This document shows positions 7,701-58,215 of a stretch of DNA of 64,000 bases, one piece after another. The stretch covers positions 434,001 to 498,000 of the forward strand of contig JAJNNQ010000126.1 in NCBI GenBank assembly GCA_027886175.1, in the 5' to 3' direction. This stretch comes from Phylloscopus collybita. Its lineage: Eukaryota; Chordata; Aves; Passeriformes; Phylloscopidae. A program made the position numbers and the translations under genes. The notes beneath the pieces are model-generated. The model did not search any database. It was not told the DNA's origin and saw nothing but the letters and a program-made list of their open reading frames with translations. How positions within the stretch are numbered: the first letter of the stretch is position 1; each line of letters opens with the position of its first letter.

Positions 7701-10700
7701 CAGCAGGAGTAGCTACTTCTTGCACCTCTGAAAACCAGACTGGGAATCTGCAGGTCTGCAGCACTAGGAACAGTTTGGAAGTTATTTTTTATTCTTTGCA
7801 TATCATGTGCTGGAATGACAGTCATAGGGAAAAATTTTCCACTCTTAACTGGTGGCATAACTGGTAAATAACCATAAATGGAAGTGTAAGGCTTCCAAAG
7901 TGTATATGAAATAAGCTCCTGCTAAATCAGGCCTTGACAACATGGTGCTTACTTGGCAGTACAAACGGCTTGTTAAACAGAACATATCTGTCTCCATCAC
8001 ACAGTCTAGAAAGATCGTGGTGACTGCATACTTAATTTCATATCAAGTAAGATTAACAAACCTATTTTCAGTTAGAAAGAGAGTATCACTTGAGAGTGGG
8101 CAAAACTATTTGAATAAACTTTCTGCATCCTTTGGACATTTTGGAGGATGTTCCTTTTACAAGAGTTGCTTTCTCTGTTAGGTTAATGACAGGTGATTGT
8201 CCTGGCTTCTTTTCTCAACCTTTTTCTTCCTTCCTGATTCTCCTGATTGGATGGATAGCAACAGGTAATTTTATAAGTCAGACCTGACTTACACAACATC
8301 ATGTGTTGCTGGCATAGCAGTAAATCAGTTATCAATTACAAGAAATATGTTTTCAGGGAATTTTTTTCTATTTGGGCTTTCTAAATCAATTTGCACGTAA
8401 CTTTGTGTGAAAGTGTTCCTTAAAACAACCACCCTGTTTCACAGTAATTACAGACTTGCAGCTGTAGTGAAATACAGCCTTTCTTGGGATTAAGTAAAAT
8501 TTCCAGAAAAGAGCTTGATGGGTATCCATGAGATCATAAATAATACTTCTCAATAAAACACTGCAACAAGGGAACTAACTTTCCTATAAGAATATAAAAT
8601 ACATTTTCTCTGCCTTTTCTAACACAATAGAAATGCTCACATAGAAAAACTTTAATTTGTGAATTGACAGACAAGACAGATAAAATCACTCCAAATATCC
8701 ACCGAGTTTTCAATTTTATTTTTTAAAATTTCTTTTAACTCCTAAGTAATTTACATTTTGAAACAAAATCATTGCAAGTTTAAGGAAAAAAGTAGAAAAT
8801 GCCTCATTTGGAAGCACTGGGGTTTAAAAGTGGTTTTGTTCTTATTAGCAAAACAATATATTAACTGAATTGCAATTTTTGAGTGGTTTAAATGAACTGA
8901 CATTTTATTTTTAGAACTTTTTTTTTTTGTTTCAATAGTATAGTTCAGGCTAACAACTTACAATAAGTAGATGCCATTCTTCACATTATAACTGCACTCT
9001 AGAAGGAACCGGAGTGTCCAGCTCAGTGGCAGGATGAGAATTTGAACTTCAAAACATGGCACCATGGGGAATGGCTGAATTAACTCTGAGTATCCACATT
9101 TCTATCTGGAACACATATTGCATGAAACAACCGTAAAAATATGTTTCCATCTAAAACTCAGGTATTACACTAGTGATAAATTGTGAGCTTGAAATCAAAG
9201 TTTTCTTAGTTAATGCACTGGTTCAGTCCCCCTGCAACATTTGCAAGCTGATAAAAAATATTTTTCCTTAACAGAACAGTCATGTCCATGGCAATTTCCT
9301 GCATTTTGGCATCAAAACAGAACTGGGCTGGGCTTCCATAAGCTACCTTCAAGAAAATCCATTAGTATTTTCTGCCATCTTGCAGAGGGGAACTTCAGGT
9401 CACCAGGTCAACTGAATTAGAAGAAATTGTCTGGCTATAAAAGGCTTCTGTTGCAATGGGACAGACTTCTTTCCTTCAAGTCCACACGGTAACAATCCAA
9501 TTCCCAGCCCAGTGCACGAGAAAACCGGACATAAAGGGACAAAGGCACCAGTACAATGCTGGTGAAAAAGAGATGGGCAAACAGAAAGATACAGCTCTTA
9601 AAGTAATTAACACTGCCATGTTGTCACAAGACAAATGAATTATGGTCAACATTTTAAGGCTCAGGAATTAAAAAGCTTTAAGAATCAAATAAGAACCCAA
9701 GCACAGGGGTGGAAATGTTCCTGAAGTAGATTGAATATGTCAAACCAAGTTTCTAAAATTGGCATTCAGAAAGCTAATTGTTTTAGTTGGAAACAGAACA
9801 AATTCAACATGTATCCTGTCACTCCATTAAGATGGTTTTTATTTTAACAACCTTTAAAAAACCCACAACACAGTTTGGTAATACCAAGAATATATGTAGT
9901 TGTTGCTTCCCAAGAAGACATTCCAGACTTTTAATATCATCCCAAATTGATAATCATTCATTTGTTGAAGATACACAGCAGTAATCAGTTAATGCACTGC
10001 AGTATTGGCCATTTACAGAGACCTCCACTTCTCAATGACATCTGCTGAGAACAGGACTGCTTATGGGACTTATGCTGCTATAAAACAGAAATTGAAGCAC
10101 TTACCCATAAATGGTTCAATAAAATCTGGGTGTTGGAAAACTTAAGAACTGAACTAAAAAAAAAAAGAAAATAATTGATCCTTTTCTTCAGCTTTTGTAC
10201 CAAAATGTTCAGGCTGTCTACATTAACTTCTTTGCACTGGTCCTGTGAAGGCTGGTATTTTATTTTTTTAAAACAAAACCTGAGGTCCCCCTGAAATAGC
10301 ATGACTTTATGACACAGTTTTGCAAAATATTACGAGAACCATAATGAAACAAGGGGTTATATAAACTTTTGGATGGACTTACCTGAAGCAGAGCTTGAGT
10401 TTGAACTCAAAAATTAACAGTGTTCAGTGTAACCCATTACATTTCTGGTAGTGCCTTTGTCAAGGCAAAGCTTGAAAAGACTGTAAAACACACTTTTTCA
10501 CTCCTGTACACAAATTACATGGGTGGGGACAAGCAATTCTGGAAAATGGTCATTGATTGTCCCTCTTAAAGTACACATTCTGAGAATGTCAGTGTTTGCA
10601 GAGTTTTTAAAATTGATTCAAGTTGATATATTTTCTTCCAAATGTTCAATGCATTTCCTCTACGCATATGAAAAATGCTGCGAATTCTTTATTTCAAAGA

Positions 10701-13363: not shown

Positions 13364-13816
13364 TCAGAGGGCAGCACCGGAGGGTGCCCAGGGTACGCGG
13401 CTCCGGCGGGGGTCGGCCGGGGGGGCCCGGCGCTGACAGACCGTGATCTCCCCGAGCAAGTGTGCAGCGCTGGCTCGCCCGCTCCTCGCTGCCTCCAGTT
13501 ACATCCCTGGCAGGAGCCCGCGACTCTCGGCTTCGCTTTCCAGGGTTATTTTTGGCCGGGGCCGCCGCATGCTGACGGCAGCGAGGCGGCGAGGCGCCGG
13601 CGGGGCCCCCGGTGGGGCGGGCGGGGAAGGGGCGGCCCGCAGCCCGCGCCCGCCCCGGCTCCCCCGCGACGCCGGGCGCCGGCCGGGGGCCGCCGGGGGC
13701 CGAGCCAGCACGGCCCCGCCCGGGGAACGCCTCTGGGCTCCCCAGCGCCGGCTCGGCAGTCTGCGCCAGGGCCGCGGCTCCCCAGCGGAGCCGGAGCCGG
13801 GCGGGCGGCAGCCGCC

Positions 13817-14077
13817 ATGGAGCGGAGCCCCATCCCCGTGCTCACCGTACAGACGGCGCCCTACGAGGACCAGCGCCCGACGGGCGGAGGGGGCCTGCGG
13901 CGACCCACGGCGCTCTTCGAGAGCCAGCGCAACTACCTGCCCAACTTCGTGCAGAGCCTGCTCTCCTCCGTCGACCTCCGCGACCGGCAGGGCTGCACCA
14001 TGGTGGTGGGCAGCGACGGCAGGTACTTCAGCAAGACGGCCATCGAGATCGTCGTCCAGATGGCCGCGGCCAACGGG
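13817..14077 (+). CDS. PGM5: PGM5 coding exon 1 (residues 1-87)
   Basis: First coding exon of phosphoglucomutase-like protein 5 (aciculin), a protein of adherens-type and muscle attachment sites that belongs to the alpha-D-phosphohexomutase family. Known partners are dystrophin/utrophin and filamin C/Xin-type proteins; the family member is reported to lack phosphoglucomutase activity. The exon encodes MERSPIPVLTVQTAP at the N terminus, then the QRNYLPNF and GSDGRYFSKTAIEIV blocks of domain 1. The start lies in a perfect Kozak context (GCCGCCATGG) and matches the N terminus that I recall for vertebrate PGM5. The same frame is open upstream to an ATG at 13,460, so an extension cannot be excluded, though that part is proline/alanine/arginine-rich and looks like translated CpG island. 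The exon ends AACGGG before GTAAGC (phase 0), and this donor is the first of six tandem copies. Confidence 0.96.
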
Positions 14078-14269
14078 GTAAGCTGTCCCCTCACGCTTCC
14101 CTCCAACGGGGTAAGCTGTCCCCTCACGCTTCCCGCCAACGGGGTAAGCTCTCCCCTCACGCTTCCCTCCAACGGGGTAAGCTGTCCCCTCACGCTTCCC
14201 CCCAACGGGGTAAGCTGTCCCCTCACGCTTCCCCCCAACGGGGTAAGCTGTCCCCTCACGCTTCCCGCC
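14072..14269 (+). repeat. 33-bp minisatellite, 6 copies, carrying the exon 1 splice donor
   Basis: Six near-identical 33-bp units start at 14,072, 14,105, 14,138, 14,171, 14,204 and 14,237. Each begins AACGGGGTAAGC. Copies differ only at a few positions: copy 3 has CTCTCC for CTGTCC, and the end of each unit varies among CTCC, CGCC and CCCC. The first AACGGG is coding (residues N86-G87); the rest is formally intron 1. Because 33 is a multiple of three and no stop occurs, the PGM5 frame stays open through the array as an 11-residue repeat (NGVSCPLTLPS-like). Each copy recreates the donor G|GTAAGC, at 14,078, 14,111, 14,144, 14,177, 14,210 and 14,243. It is not a CRISPR array, having no spacers. 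Confidence 0.97.
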
Positions 14270-17200
14270 GCCCCCGTCCGTGGCAGCGGTGCCCGCGCTG
14301 TGCCCGCGCCGGCCCTGCCTGCGGCAGAAGCTGCCAGTGTCATCGCCCGGACAGCGCTCAGGTGAAGCCCGGAGAAGCCCGCGGGCTGTATTCCAGCGCT
14401 GTGCGCCTCAGGTGCCCGAGCCAGCCCCGTTGGTCCTACCCCTGGGGCTGGGCCGCTGGGCCCTGGCGAGGTGGTGGCTCCATCGGGGTGTGACACCGAT
14501 GGGGCGGGGATGGTGGCAGCCTCCGGAGACTGCCGGCCCTGCCCTGCTCTTTCACACCTTATGTTAGAAGGGGGCAGGCATGGGAGCTGAAACGTAGGAG
14601 AAGATGTAGCAGAGTTAAAAATAAGTACACGGGAAACAAAGGTGTCAGACAAGCATCTTCTGCTCAGGGTATTTTAAAAATAATTCAGGGAAAATGGTAC
14701 TGTTGAAGGAAGAGGAGTTCAGTATTTTACTCACACCTAAGAGAAAATAATAGTTATTTTCAGAATAGTTATGACCAGTGATGGCTGGTCACTTACTATC
14801 AAATTGTAAAATGCAGGAAGACAGCAGTGGCAGAAACCTCTGGTCAGACCGGATACAAATTTTTCTTGTGCAGTTTTGAAAGTAGGAAAGAACTCAGGAA
14901 GAAAACTTATGTCTTCTGCTAGATACTTATGTATTCATGTGTGGATGTGTATGTACAGAAAGCTGGAAACACCAGGTAATGCAGGCTTGAAGTTTCTACT
15001 TCAAAGCAGAGTTGAAACTGCTATCACTTGTTATGATGCCTAGACTCATCCTCTAGATTTGGGAAAAGGAATTATTTAATTTTATAGGGTTTATTTTTTG
15101 TAGGGATTTTTATTTCAAAAGCTGAGTACTTTATAGGCAGTCCTTTCAAAAGATCTTTCAGTTTTGAAATGAATTTCCATATGTGTTCAAATTTTCCCTG
15201 CTGATTTGTTGTCACGTGCAAGACCAACCAGTCTTGTACGAGTAAAGAGTGTTTTAAATTTACTTCTAAAGCGTGTTCTCAGCATGGTGATAATATCAAG
15301 CAGATGCCGCGCAATGCCTGAGATTTCAGAGGCTGGGTTACATACTGTCTACCTAGTGCAAAATCACTCCTCCTGTAAGGACTTGGAAGAAGCCAGGGTT
15401 TATGTGGCCCAGGGTGTGGGGGGGCTCTGTGGGGGACACTGGTGGAAGTGGGGACAGTGGCAGGACTAGCACAGTGGTTCCGTCTGCAGTGGCAGGGAAG
15501 GCAGCGTGCAGGCAGTGAGTGTAGGGCAGGGGAAGTGGGCTGGTGTGTGGGGAGCTGCAAGGAAGGTGGGACAGGACACAAGAGAACTGCTCCCTAGCCC
15601 CATTGCCCTTGCAGCTCAGTGGAGATAGTCACACTGATGGAATTGTACCTGTGGAGCAGGTGGGATGAAGTGCAGTACAGCTAAAGCAAGAGTCCAGCAG
15701 CAGGAACTTCCTTGCAGAGGCTGAGGCCTTTGAATGCTGGTAGAAGCCACAAGAATGGGTTACAATGCAGGGTGACCACAAGAATTGAGGTGCTGAAGAA
15801 ATTTAGGGTTTAGAGGAGCAGGGGCTTCTCAGCCAAGTTATGCTGACTAATTTTTTCTTGTCAGCCTGCCTCCTTCCTACTTCCCCATCTTGCTGGAATG
15901 TCTTTCTGACCTCAGGAGATTTCCAGTTTGAGATGATTCTGACACCTTGCTGTAATAATGCTTACCCCTTTCTTAAGTTACTGCAAGTTTCTTAGAAACA
16001 GTTTCTCCCTTTCTGAAGCCAACCCCCAAACTCTTCTGCTTGCAGTTCTCACAAATATCTTAATTCACTATCTGATTGTCTCACTAATGACACAGTCCTC
16101 AGAAATTCAGCAGCCCAGCTGGTGGGGAGCTATTGAAAGGGCTTCCCATTTCCATATTCTGATGCTCTGTTCCCTCTCTGACATCTTCACCCTGCTCACC
16201 CTCACCTCTGTTTCTCTCAAGCACAACCTACATGCATAAGCTTCGTATTTACTTAGTTAGTACTATTTGTTTTATTTTTTAGCTGTTAAAGTACACCTGC
16301 AGGGAAAATATCTGAAGCTCCTTGATAGCATTGTTTAGTGCTGTGCTATATAAATAGGGACAGAGGAAGGGAAGACTCATGAGAACAAAGATCCCTTTGG
16401 ATGAGGTTAGTATCACGAGAAAGCATGTAGCTGGTATCATAGGGAAAGGAGTGAGCTGGTGTAGGGCTGGATCAGATGAAACACGGGGAAGGCTTGAAGG
16501 GTGCACTGGAAAGGTTCAGCTGCCCTGAGTGCCAGCAGTGCTGATAAACTGAACTTTAATCTCCTTCCTGGAAGATGCACACCGAGAGTCATGGCCAGTT
16601 GTGCTGGCTGAGTACAGAAATAAAAGTGATTTTCTATTATCATCTGTAAACGGATTGCCCTTTAGAGTTGCTAGGTTCCTCTTGTTCTAACTTGGTGACT
16701 CATCCCACATTCCCCCTGTGCTAACAGCCCAGCACGGTTGGCATAGGCTGCAGCACAAGGAATGAGATGAGGTCCCCTGCTCAGTCAGCTGCCAGTGCTT
16801 GGCCTGCCTTCTACTCATCCTCGGTGCTGCTGGCTCATGCCCTCCAGCACAGGGCTGCAGGTACACACAGTACAGCTGCAGCCTGCCCAGCTGCAGCCTG
16901 CACAGCCCTCCCGTGGTGGCAGCAGCTGCAGCCTGGCCCGTGCTCTGCCAACTCCTCAGGGCCGAGGGTGGCTCATCAGGGTTACCCTGCAGTGGGGCAC
17001 ACAGCTGGGATAGTGGCAAACACATTTGGGTAAGGGGCTGCATGTCGTGGCAAGGTTGGGGAGCATGAGGAAGGCCAGACAGAGGTCCTGTACCATCCTG
17101 GGTTGCAACAAGCAGTTTGACAAAGTGGAGTGGTAGGAGAGGATTTGAGGGTCTACTTCCCTTTTCACCTGTGTTGTGCCAGTAGTAGTGTCTGTCAACC

Positions 17201-20200: not shown

Positions 20201-20803
20201 ACTAGAAGTGTAACTTCAAGAGACTGCAGGTCCTAATGTGGAGTCATATACTGAAAGGCTGCTCTAAGAAAGGCAATTCTCTTTTTGTTCCCTTTCTGTT
20301 AAAGCCACAGCCCTGCAAATGCATCTTTGGAGTCAGCTCTAAACTATATTAATATCTGAGAGGATTTGCTGATTGGTGGTGTTGTCTGGCAAGTTTTGGT
20401 AGCAGGATGGTAGCCTAGTGTTATGCTTGGGAGCTTTTCAAATTGTTATCATTACTGTGCTCTTGCTTTACTGTCACATCCTCTGGGGTTAAATGTGCCA
20501 GGTTAGAGTGGTTTTTGTCAGTGCTCCAGGTTAGCATGCAACCAAGTCCTGCACTTAAATTTCTCTTCAGAAGAGTATGTTCCATACCAAGACTTCACCA
20601 TTCCTATCCTGTACATATATGCCCATTTTGTGTGTGTGCTTGTATACCAATTATCAAAAATTTAGTACCATTCAGAGTATGTTCCATATCAAGACTTCAC
20701 CATTCCTATCCTGTACATATATGCCTGTTGTGTGTATGCTTGTATACCAATTATCAAAAATTTAGTACCATTCAGAGTACTTTGGCTTGTTTCCTCCGCG
20801 TAG
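14078..20803 (+). other. PGM5: PGM5 intron 1
   Basis: A 6.7-kb phase-0 intron, GTAAGC to GTAG. The first 190 bases are the donor minisatellite and the first 460 or so belong to the CpG island. A G-rich stretch sits near 15,410-15,550 and a CAGCTGCAGCCTG low-complexity patch near 16,860-16,940. The middle part is AT-rich unique sequence without a recognisable exon. A roughly 100-bp tandem duplication lies directly before the acceptor. The predicted acceptor (TTTCCTCCGCGTAG) is preceded by a short, G-interrupted polypyrimidine tract, so it looks only moderately strong. Confidence 0.85.
20572..20773. repeat. Tandem duplication (about 102 bp twice) before exon 2
   Basis: Copy 1 runs 20,572-20,673 and copy 2 runs 20,674-20,773; a third partial copy begins with AGAGTAC at 20,774. 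Each starts AGAGTATGTTCCATA and ends TTTAGTACCATTC. The copies differ by a few substitutions and a 2-base length change in a TG-rich segment. The array ends 30 bases before the exon 2 acceptor, so any distal branch-point region is duplicated. Confidence 0.95.
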
Positions 20804-23521
<2,718 letters not shown>

Positions 23522-23668
23522 GACCTGCTCCAGACATAGTTTCAGAAAAAATCTATCAAATCAGCAAAACCTTGGAGGAATATGCAATTTGTCCTGATCT
23601 CAGAGTTGATTTATCACGCCTAGGAAGACAAGAATTTGATCTGGAGAACAAATTCAAACCTTTCCGAG
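23522..23668 (+). CDS. PGM5: PGM5 coding exon 3 (residues 142-190)
   Basis: Encodes [20 protein letters not shown] followed by the [28 protein letters not shown] segment. The block is highly similar to vertebrate PGM5; the [18 protein letters not shown] wording separates it from PGM1. It covers the end of domain 1 and the linker into domain 2 of the phosphohexomutase fold. The exon is 147 nt, starts and ends in phase 1, with CAG acceptor and G|GTATCA donor. No stops or shifts. Confidence 0.96.
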
Positions 23669-23812: not shown

Positions 23813-24938
23813 GAATCATAGAATGGTTTGTGGTGGAAAGCACCTTCAGGATCATCTTGTTCCAACCCTGCTATTATGGGCAGGAAGACCTTTCATTAGA
23901 TAAGGCTGCTCAGAGTTCCATCTAGCCTGGCTTTGAATACTTCTGGGGATGGGGCATCCACAGCTTCTCTGGGCATCCTGTTCAAGTACCTCACCATCCT
24001 CACAGTAAAGAATTTTTTCCTAAAATCTAATGTAAATCTCCTTCAGTTTAAAATCCTTCCCCCTTGGCATAGCACTATTTGCCTGTTTTGAAATTCTTTG
24101 TATAAGCTCCCTTTTAGGTACTGGAAGGCAGCTATAAGGTCTCTTCTGAGCCTTCTCCATGCTGAACAATCCCAGATCTCTCAGCCTGTCCCCATAGCAG
24201 AGGTTCTCCACCCTTCTGATATCTTTGTGGTACTACCTTGGGCACACTCCAACAGGTCCATGTCCTTCTGGTACTGAGAACTCCAGAGCTGGATGCAGCA
24301 CTGCAGGTTGGGGGGGTCTCACCAGAGTGGACCAGAGGGGCAGAATCCCTTCCCTCAACCTGCTGGCTGTGATGTTTTGGATGCAGCCCAGGACACAACT
24401 GGCTTGCTGGTCTGTGGGTCATGTCCAGCTTTTCATTCCCAAGAACCCCCAAGTCCTTCTCTGCAGGGCTGCTCTCAATGAGTTCTTCTCCTGGTTTGTT
24501 CCTGTGTCTGGAACTGTCCTGACCCAGGTGCAGCACTTTGTGCTTGGACTTGTTGAACCTCATGAGATTCTCACAGATACACTTTTCAAGCTTGTCCGGG
24601 TCCCTCTGGATGGCATCCCTTCCTTCTGTTGTTTCAGCTACACTGCTCAGCTTTGTGTCATCTGCAAACCTGCTGAGGGTGCACTCAATGTCACTGGTGA
24701 TGTCATTGGTGAAGATATTAAAGGGGACTGACTGGTCCCCAGACAGAACCCTGAGGGAACCCACTCCTTACTGGACTCCACCTGGACACAGAGTCACTGA
24801 CCACAGCACTCTGGCTGTGTCCATCCAGCAAACTCCTTTTTCATTGAATAGCTCATCCATCATCTCTCCAATTCAGAGATAAGATGCCATCGGTACAGTG
24901 TCAAAGACCTTAAAGAGGGCTAGGTAGATGACATTGGT
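23813..24938 (-). mobile_element. CR1 LINE: 3' end and C-terminal reverse transcriptase region
   Basis: Starts with TAGAATCATAGAATGGTTTG, the complement of the CR1 3' end, and continues into sequence whose minus-strand translation carries CR1 reverse-transcriptase landmarks: FNIFTNDI, then FADDTKLSSVAE (the FADD catalytic motif), KSKHKVLHLG and AEKDLGVLGNEKLDM. The longest open piece is 24,132-24,764 (210 codons), but the frame around it is broken, so it is a dead copy. The homology stops at about 24,938 (AGGTAGATGACA), where the exon 2-like fragment begins. Confidence 0.9.
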
Positions 24939-24944
24939 CTGTCC

Positions 24945-25053
24945 TGTATCATCTGAAAGATCAAAGCAGCTGCTGGAGTTATTCTAATAGCCAGCCACAG
25001 TCCCAGGAAACCGGGAGGAGAGATTGCAGTGAAGTTTAAGGTTGCCAGTGGAG
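24945..25053 (+). pseudogene. Decayed partial copy of PGM5 exon 2
   Basis: A 109-base segment aligns without gaps to the last 109 bases of exon 2 (20,858-20,966), with 20 mismatches by my hand alignment (about 82% identity). Weaker similarity reaches left to about 24,940. On the right it includes the exon end (GTGGAG) and the start of the following intron: GTTGGG plus a T run, against GTATGGGG plus a T run. Read in the exon 2 frame, CGA (R109) is TGA and TASHSPGG has become IASHSPRK. The first 50 or so bases of exon 2 and its acceptor are absent. Nine of the 20 changes are at third codon positions. It lies on the same strand as the gene, 4.1 kb downstream of the true exon and between two CR1 blocks. 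It cannot replace exon 2. Confidence 0.88.
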
Positions 25054-25069
25054 GTTGGGTTTTTTTTGT

Positions 25070-27748: not shown

Positions 27749-27874
27749 TGGAAATTGTGGATTCTGTGGAAATCTACCTCAACCTCCTTCGAAGTATTTT
27801 TGACTTCAGTGCCATCAGAAATTTGCTGACTGGACCCAATCAGATTAAAATAAGGATTGATGCCATGAATGGAG
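27749..27874 (+). CDS. PGM5: PGM5 coding exon 4 (residues 191-232)
   Basis: Encodes [20 protein letters not shown], then [22 protein letters not shown]. This is domain 2 of the phosphohexomutase fold. The exon is 126 nt and starts and ends in phase 1, with acceptor TTTTTCTAG and donor G|GTATGA. Residue 231 is asparagine (DAMNG); the mammalian sequence that I recall has histidine (DAMHG) there. The frame continues into the intron for 14 codons before a stop, which is not meaningful. Confidence 0.96.
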
Positions 27875-30045: not shown

Positions 30046-30236
30046 TTATGGGACCCTATGTGAGAAGAATCTTGTGTGATGAATTGGGAGCTCCTGCAAA
30101 TTCTGCCATCAACTGTATTCCTCTGGAGGATTTTGGTGGACAGCCTCCTGATCCAAATTTAACATATGCAACTGCCTTGCTGGAGGCTATGAAAGGTGGC
30201 GAGTATGGATTTGGAGCTGCTTTTGATGCTGATGGA
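30046..30236 (+). CDS. PGM5: PGM5 coding exon 5 (residues 233-296, first half of metal-loop)
   Basis: Encodes [20 protein letters not shown], then [44 protein letters not shown]. The last residues D293-A-D-G296 are the first part of the metal-binding loop, which reads DGDGDR in active phosphoglucomutases and DADGDR in PGM5; the two aspartates are kept and the first glycine is alanine. The intron falls inside this loop, between G296 and D297. The exon is 191 nt, entering in phase 1 and leaving in phase 0 at GGA|GTAAGT, a strong donor. Confidence 0.96.
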
Positions 30237-31131: not shown

Positions 31132-31286
31132 GACCGCTACATGATCCTTGGCCAAAATGGTTTCTTTGTTAATGCATCAGATTCACTGGCTATCATTGCT
31201 GCCAATCTGTCTTGCATTCCATACTTCTGTCAGATGGGTGTCCGAGGATTTGGCAGAAGCATGCCTACCAGCACAGCTCTAGACAA
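31132..31286 (+). CDS. PGM5: PGM5 coding exon 6 (residues 297-347, second half of metal-loop)
   Basis: Encodes [20 protein letters not shown], then [33 protein letters not shown]297-R298 completes the DADGDR loop. [10 protein letters not shown] is the domain 3 entry that in PGM1 reads as an ARSMPTS-type stretch. Compared with the mammalian PGM5 that I recall, YFCQ has replaced YFRQ and ALDK has replaced ALDR. The exon is 155 nt, starts in phase 0 and ends with two bases of the lysine codon (AA|GTAAGA), completed by the first base of exon 7. Confidence 0.96.
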
Positions 31287-58099: not shown

Positions 58100-58215
58100 A
58101 GTGGCAAAAGTAATGAAGGTTCCTGTGTATGAGACACCAGCAGGATGGAGATATTTTTCCAATCTCATGGACTCTGGACGTTGTTCCCTTTGTGGTGAGG
58201 AGAGTTTTGGCACTG
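58100..58215 (+). CDS. PGM5: PGM5 coding exon 7 (residues 348-386, sugar-binding loop)
   Basis: Completes the lysine codon of exon 6 and encodes [19 protein letters not shown], then [27 protein letters not shown] (from residue 380) is the domain 3 sugar-specificity loop of phosphoglucomutases and is intact here, although PGM5 is reported to be non-enzymatic. The exon is 116 nt, enters in phase 2 and ends with the first G of the next codon at G|GTAAGT (phase 1). It is the last PGM5 exon in the window; the next should begin with the SDH.REKDG block, which I do not find before 64,000. Confidence 0.95.

Follow-up and report, generated by a model that had tools for sequence, protein, structure and literature searches.

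Six in-phase splice donors within a minisatellite at the exon 1/intron 1 border of PGM5 in Phylloscopus collybita

The border between exon 1 and intron 1 of the PGM5 gene of Phylloscopus collybita lies inside a minisatellite of six 33-bp units, each of which carries the identical splice donor GGG/GTAAGC in phase 0. We put a probability of about 0.6 on the reading that the spliceosome mostly uses donor 1, with donors 2-6 acting as weak, tolerated and leaky alternates that keep the reading frame. Donor 1 is most likely the site used, and the evidence on donor use, which is indirect, leans toward it. If donors 2-6 were occasionally used, G87 and I88 would be separated by 11, 22, 33, 44 or 55 added residues with no frameshift, which would explain why the array is tolerated in a conserved gene. 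The initial annotation had named, as one alternative, almost exclusive use of the first donor and a neutral array; this is close to the reading preferred here, which differs in allowing the later donors to leak. Table 1 gives the positions of the features within the window, i.e., the whole stretch of 64,000 nucleotides that was analysed, together with two related arrays located elsewhere in the genome.

Table 1. Features of the PGM5 window and the two related exon-end arrays of the same genome.
Feature	Position	Strand	Basis or remark
PGM5 exon 1, coding part, 87 codons, end AACGGG	13817..14077	+	match to PDB Phosphoglucomutase 5, E 3.9e-38, residues 1-87
33-bp minisatellite, 6.0 copies, across exon 1/intron 1 border of PGM5	14070..14266	+	TRF
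Donor 1, GGG/GTAAGC	14075..14083	+	last exon base 14077; putative ancestral site
Predicted hairpin GCUUCCC..GGGGUAAGC burying donor 2	14095..14116	+	folding, -9.5 kcal/mol
Donor 2	14108..14116	+	last exon base 14110; would add 11 residues
Donor 3	14141..14149	+	last exon base 14143; would add 22 residues
Donor 4	14174..14182	+	last exon base 14176; would add 33 residues
Donor 5	14207..14215	+	last exon base 14209; would add 44 residues
Donor 6	14240..14248	+	last exon base 14242; would add 55 residues
First in-frame stop on intron 1 read-through	14363..14365	+	
PGM5 exon 2, begins ATCGGC (I88)	20804..20966	+	acceptor partner of the six donors
PGM5 exon 3	23522-23668	+	
PGM5 exon 4	27749-27874	+	
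PGM5 exon 5	30046-30236	+	
PGM5 exon 6	31132-31286	+	
PGM5 exon 7	58100-58215	+	
Netrin-G-like exon-end donor minisatellite, 24-bp unit, 17.0 copies, 17 donors	G000:C1:7649648-7650052 (L047, 1449-1853)		TRF
PTPRU-like exon-end donor minisatellite, 33-bp unit, six AAAG/GTGAGC donors	G000:C61:413281-413544 (L049, L056)		

The six tandem units proposed in the initial annotation were confirmed by TRF, which returned a period of 33 and 6.0 copies at 96% match, with a score of 366 that is the highest of the 14 rows in the window. The array begins within exon 1, and the unit thus spans the real exon-intron border. The 9-mer GGGGTAAGC occurs exactly six times on the + strand of the window, always in the array, and is carried by all the units (6/6). 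These exact positions, together with a reading of the frame, bore out the earlier claim of six phase 0 donors in an open frame: frame 0 is open from the ATG at 13817 through the array until the stop listed in Table 1, frame +1 contains a stop in every unit, and frame +2 is also open. Each extra unit corresponds to 11 codons of the VSCPLTLPSNG type, and the proposed 11-residue steps are indeed possible without a change of frame, as no stop is met up to and including exon 7 when exon 2 is joined to donor 2, 3, 4, 5 or 6 (5/5 joins). Units 1-5 differ at 2 of 33 positions only, and both of these variable sites alter the residue (C/S and S/A/P); unit 6 has an intact donor, and its final bases merge into single-copy intron. 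With up to three mismatches, the 27-mer core of the unit was found at six places in the whole 1.25-Gb genome, all of them in the PGM5 array, the reversed-pattern controls giving 0. Across 264 kb of contiguous DNA with 61 minisatellite-like TRF rows (overlapping rows included), only the PGM5 array contains GGTRAG in its unit. A search of Rfam at gathering thresholds gave no match within the window.

Regarding the origin of the array, exon 1 ends in GCGGCCAACGGG, and the intron past the last unit reads CTTCCCGCCGCC. Judging from the sequence, a tandem duplication may have taken place across the border between two GCC triplets, one in the exon (...GCGGCC/AACGGG) and the other in the intron (...CCCGCCGCC). 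The end of unit 2, CCCGCCAACGGG, is the joint expected if the duplication linked two GCC triplets, and repeat slippage would subsequently have multiplied the duplicated unit. A database model of Mimus melanotis (P0122) reads through the border as NGVSCALALPALLGG, where six of the first eight intron residues match VSCPLTLP of the unit; the array unit therefore appears to be the native intron start of the bird, present in one copy in Mimus melanotis.

The PGM5 gene itself looks intact. Seven coding exons lie within the window, and their splice joins were read; tblastn segments on the contig, which are match segments only, cover residues 1-567, the later ones lying beyond the window, so that a functional PGM5 protein would be expected. 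Among the 386 residues encoded in the window, 384 are identical to those of Pyrgilauda ruficollis (P0152) and Haemorhous mexicanus (P0148), which are among the best matches. The junction between G87 and I88 had been placed correctly in the initial annotation, the start of exon 2 being preceded by CGTAG. Its description as lying just before the active-site serine loop is loose, as the TASH serine is residue 122, 35 residues past the junction.

Several other features were observed in and around this gene. A two-copy tandem duplication of approximately 102 bp (20572-20679 and 20674-20779, 95% identical) stops 24 nt short of exon 2, and tandem repeats are thus present at both ends of intron 1. In intron 3, between exons 3 and 4, the later part of exon 2 and its donor flank are present again as a degenerate copy (24942-25067; 82% over 127 bp), the translation of which contains a stop. 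An ORF on the - strand (24132-24764) presumably resembles a reverse transcriptase fragment of a bird CR1 LINE, and an inverted match of 71% links 23894-24312 with 49790-49353. At the exon 6/7 join, after LDK, the stork PGM5 isoform X1 (P0170) has 16 extra residues, the same alignment figures being obtained for P0169, and the Columba guinea PGM5 model (P0126) has approximately 54; these extensions are length variants at another exon border and are unrelated to the array.

The U1 pairing energy is -9.2 kcal/mol at all six donors, the most favourable value among GT sites scored in 13401-15000 and one that falls within the best 1% of the 3889 GT sites on the + strand of the window. Since pairing is equal, the choice among the donors must rest on position or context. 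Each new unit would put the intron-derived GCUUCCC directly upstream of the next GGGGUAAGC, and a hairpin of -9.4 to -12.0 kcal/mol, absent at donor 1, would thereby form at each of donors 2-6. In addition to the hairpin predicted at donor 2 (Table 1), similar hairpins are predicted at +33, +66, +99 and +132 for donors 3-6 (-9.4, -9.5, -12.0 and -12.0 kcal/mol, respectively). At donor 1, exon sequence stands in place of the upstream arm, and the 28-nt stretch is predicted to fold differently (-8.4 kcal/mol). The opening energy computed in local windows was 3.1-5.7 kcal/mol for donor 1 and 7.4-11.5 kcal/mol for donors 2-6 in all settings (6/6), and the opening of donor 1 stayed at 4.6 kcal/mol when the array was given one to eight copies in silico. 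When 13817-14400 was folded whole, donor 1 required 8.9 versus 10.5-11.9 for donors 2-6, a gap of only 1.6-3.0 kcal/mol. In co-transcriptional folding, donor 3 was more open than donor 1 at four of six lengths, and donor 6 was slightly more open at one of six. When the middle of the unit was shuffled, 8 of 300 arrays (wide window) or 51 of 300 (narrow window) favoured donor 1 as strongly as the consensus array does, so much of this advantage would be attributable to C-rich composition. The structural argument favouring donor 1 is therefore suggestive only.

A length ladder arising from several donors is possible, although we regard it as rather doubtful. Several donors would be used appreciably, and muscle cells would make PGM5 forms lengthened by 0 to 55 residues, whose relative amounts would depend on the repeat number of the individual. 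The six donors are equally strong and all in phase, the frame is open, and the five extended joins contain no stop, all of which is consistent with such a ladder. Lievers, in 2001, is said to have obtained RT-PCR evidence of alternative splicing at the human CBS VNTR. Human repeats at exon-intron borders also often yield alternative transcripts; 66% of 27 intron modifications also show a transcript that keeps the repeat in the exon (PMC2812944). On the other hand, the hairpins predicted at donors 2-6 argue against appreciable use of several donors, and the two variable sites of the unit, both of which change the residue, give no sign of constraint on the peptide. N86, G87, I88 and G89 are invariant across 27 aligned PGM5 proteins, and the exon 1/2 join is therefore constrained. 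A structure prediction from the 27-protein alignment places the junction between a helix (73-86) and a strand (90-93), with a mean pLDDT of 41, a confidence too low for evidence.

The insert expected from such a ladder is, furthermore, found in no relative's protein among the matches listed. The homologue lists comprised the best 120 of 133 matches and the best 120 of 1408 matches. With a full-length query containing five units, the insert was absent from the 118 new PGM5-type proteins among the best 120 of 1408 matches; 114 of them join NG straight to IG. Of the other four, two are models that read through the intron, one is a PGM1-like model whose 19-residue insert is unrelated, and one is a divergent partial sequence that reads NRIG. 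P0036 and P0070 likewise read NG/IG without the insert. None of the 239 sequences retrieved among the matches listed contains the insert: 121 continue directly with IGR/VGR, 116 do not (mostly because of intron read-through), and two are without the motif. Where those 116 have at least 11 further residues (106 sequences), no second NGV/NGI unit occurs within 60 residues. A query made of the array and the following intron gave one unrelated weak match (P0121, E 0.04), which is also the only one of the 239 sequences with the PLTLP residues. Missing arrays from the same species say little, because short-read contigs are expected to break in such an array, and the absence of the insert from the listed proteins, which belong to other species, would be a weak argument for donor 1.

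The PGM5 array would be one of a recurrent kind, as donor minisatellites also begin within netrin-G-like and PTPRU-like coding exon ends. A total of 22 donor-like array flanks (16 + 6) were read, which were picked by eye and are hence a biased sample. Two of the 22 arrays, those mentioned above, lie at coding exon ends by homology; the upstream open frames of nine others (10 proteins, two of them from L035) gave no Pfam match, and the 11 remaining arrays were subjected to inspection only. The ORF upstream of the 24-bp array is a laminin-EGF exon (Pfam PF24973, 7e-10; PF00053, 5.7e-7) that matched netrins in PDB and that we take to be netrin-G-like. This array starts inside the exon end ...DDENVCI G/ and has units of the GEHESVCI type; donors 1-8 are in frame, a 22-bp step puts donors 9-12 out of frame, and a second such step does so for donors 13-17. 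The PTPRU-like array adjoins a 37-nt receptor phosphatase exon with the acceptor CTCCACAG and the product ETRLNCVRIARK. The ORF of the preceding exon matches Fn3_PTPRU (4.1e-46), and the joined product of these exons aligns with PTP-mu through GETKIDCVQVATK. Its donors are spaced 33, 33, 33, 65 and 65, with donors 1-4 in frame and donors 5-6 out of frame, and its units are of the GEPSPSPSHRK type. It follows from these cases that the genome has donor arrays at more than one exon end, and that the distal donors of such arrays may come to lie out of frame.

The hairpin was rejected as a general rule, as the netrin-G-like array has no consistent folding advantage at donor 1. Genome-wide counts of donor motifs in arrays were mixed: three copies of GGTGAG were found at 9253+9615 places versus 1288+1608 for the reversed-pattern control, and with a period of 33 at 77+63 versus 4+6, whereas three copies of GGTAAG were found at only 105+104 places, below the 10108+10226 of the control. 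No donor-specific excess is therefore claimed. As the period-33 search preselected that period, the sister cases are no proof that 3n periods are in excess.

In both sister arrays, the distal donors are out of frame, so that their strong use would break the netrin-G-like and PTPRU-like proteins. This speaks for a minor share of distal donors in splicing and counts against routine use of the last donor. PGM5 with 55 extra residues, spliced mainly from donor 6, is accordingly improbable in our estimate. According to Eperon and co-workers, the intron-proximal one of two equal donors is reportedly often preferred, which would favour donor 6; the open frame and the slightly greater openness of donor 6 at a single co-transcriptional length point in the same direction. 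However, the outcome would be a proline-rich insert beside the invariant join, and there is no supporting protein among the matches listed. A shade less probable is an inert passenger, in which donor 1 is exclusive, the mRNA is never affected and the 3n period is a matter of chance (one in three). The period and the frame have a modest chance probability, and the openness of frame +2 is compatible with this explanation, but complete silence would be unlikely for five extra donors with equal U1 pairing at 33-nt spacing. An assembly artefact, with one copy or a different copy number at the true locus, is highly improbable: a single assembly of the species is the basis, and the query made of array and intron matched no related ORF, but the array is short (some 200 bp), the contig around it measures 3.445 Mb, the 1.247-Gb assembly consists of 517 contigs, the copies of the array differ by substitutions, and two analogous arrays exist elsewhere in the genome.

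Several known systems can be compared with the PGM5 array. GYNNGY tandem alternative donors are competing donors in one exon end, with two sites at a spacing of 4 nt; the PGM5 donors likewise compete at one exon end, but they are six identical sites at a spacing of 33 nt. Zhuo et al. (PNAS, 2007) are said to have described introns originating from tandem arrays, the repeats making new introns with matching ends. Those arrays resemble the PGM5 array in being tandem repeats with splice signals near intron borders, whereas the PGM5 intron is common to other vertebrates and gains donors, and the exon 2 acceptor bears no relation to the unit. Closest among the known cases is the human CBS 31-bp VNTR, c.1444_1467+7(16_21), at the exon 13/intron 13 border, for which a copy-number polymorphism is documented (16-21 copies), the units differing by single substitutions but not in length (PMC2630376; PMC1395315). 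As in PGM5, the CBS unit lies across the exon-intron border (24 exonic and 7 intronic bases by its name), and each unit should repeat the donor. In contrast to the 33-bp, 3n unit of PGM5, the 31-bp CBS unit is non-3n, and later donors would shift the frame. In human segmental-duplication genes, 27 tandem-repeat changes at exon-intron borders have been catalogued, with averages of 30-bp units and four copies, and nine of ten intron modifications in coding sequence keep the frame (PMC2812944). These human repeats are, like the PGM5 array, minisatellites at exon-intron borders that can give alternative splicing; they vary among recent paralogues, whereas the PGM5 unit is found at a single genomic place. 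The main text of that paper contains no word beginning with "donor". Among titles and abstract beginnings, with subscription journals mostly outside the coverage, no published account was found of such an array in PGM5 or in birds.

The kind itself is known, and the PGM5 case departs from it by a run of six donors, all in phase, in one conserved gene of a bird, with two further arrays in the genome. A speculative extension, which we hold only tentatively and consider unlikely as it stands, is that songbirds possess "donor ladders", i.e., minisatellites originating at the 5′ splice sites of coding exons that are conserved (PGM5, PTPRU-like and netrin-G-like), which would provide allele-specific, in-frame protein lengths changing at minisatellite rate, the duplication-built hairpins of PGM5 keeping the ancestral donor on top. 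How one of several identical donors of equal strength is chosen has long been asked, and the PGM5 locus is a natural experiment on this: with six identical donors 33 nt apart and all in frame, each choice would leave a readable mRNA, and copy number, if variable between birds, would give a natural dose series. Short-read assembly and annotation may conceal arrays at exon borders. The two sister arrays point to a mutational route that recurs and through which length polymorphism at exon borders could arise in conserved vertebrate proteins.
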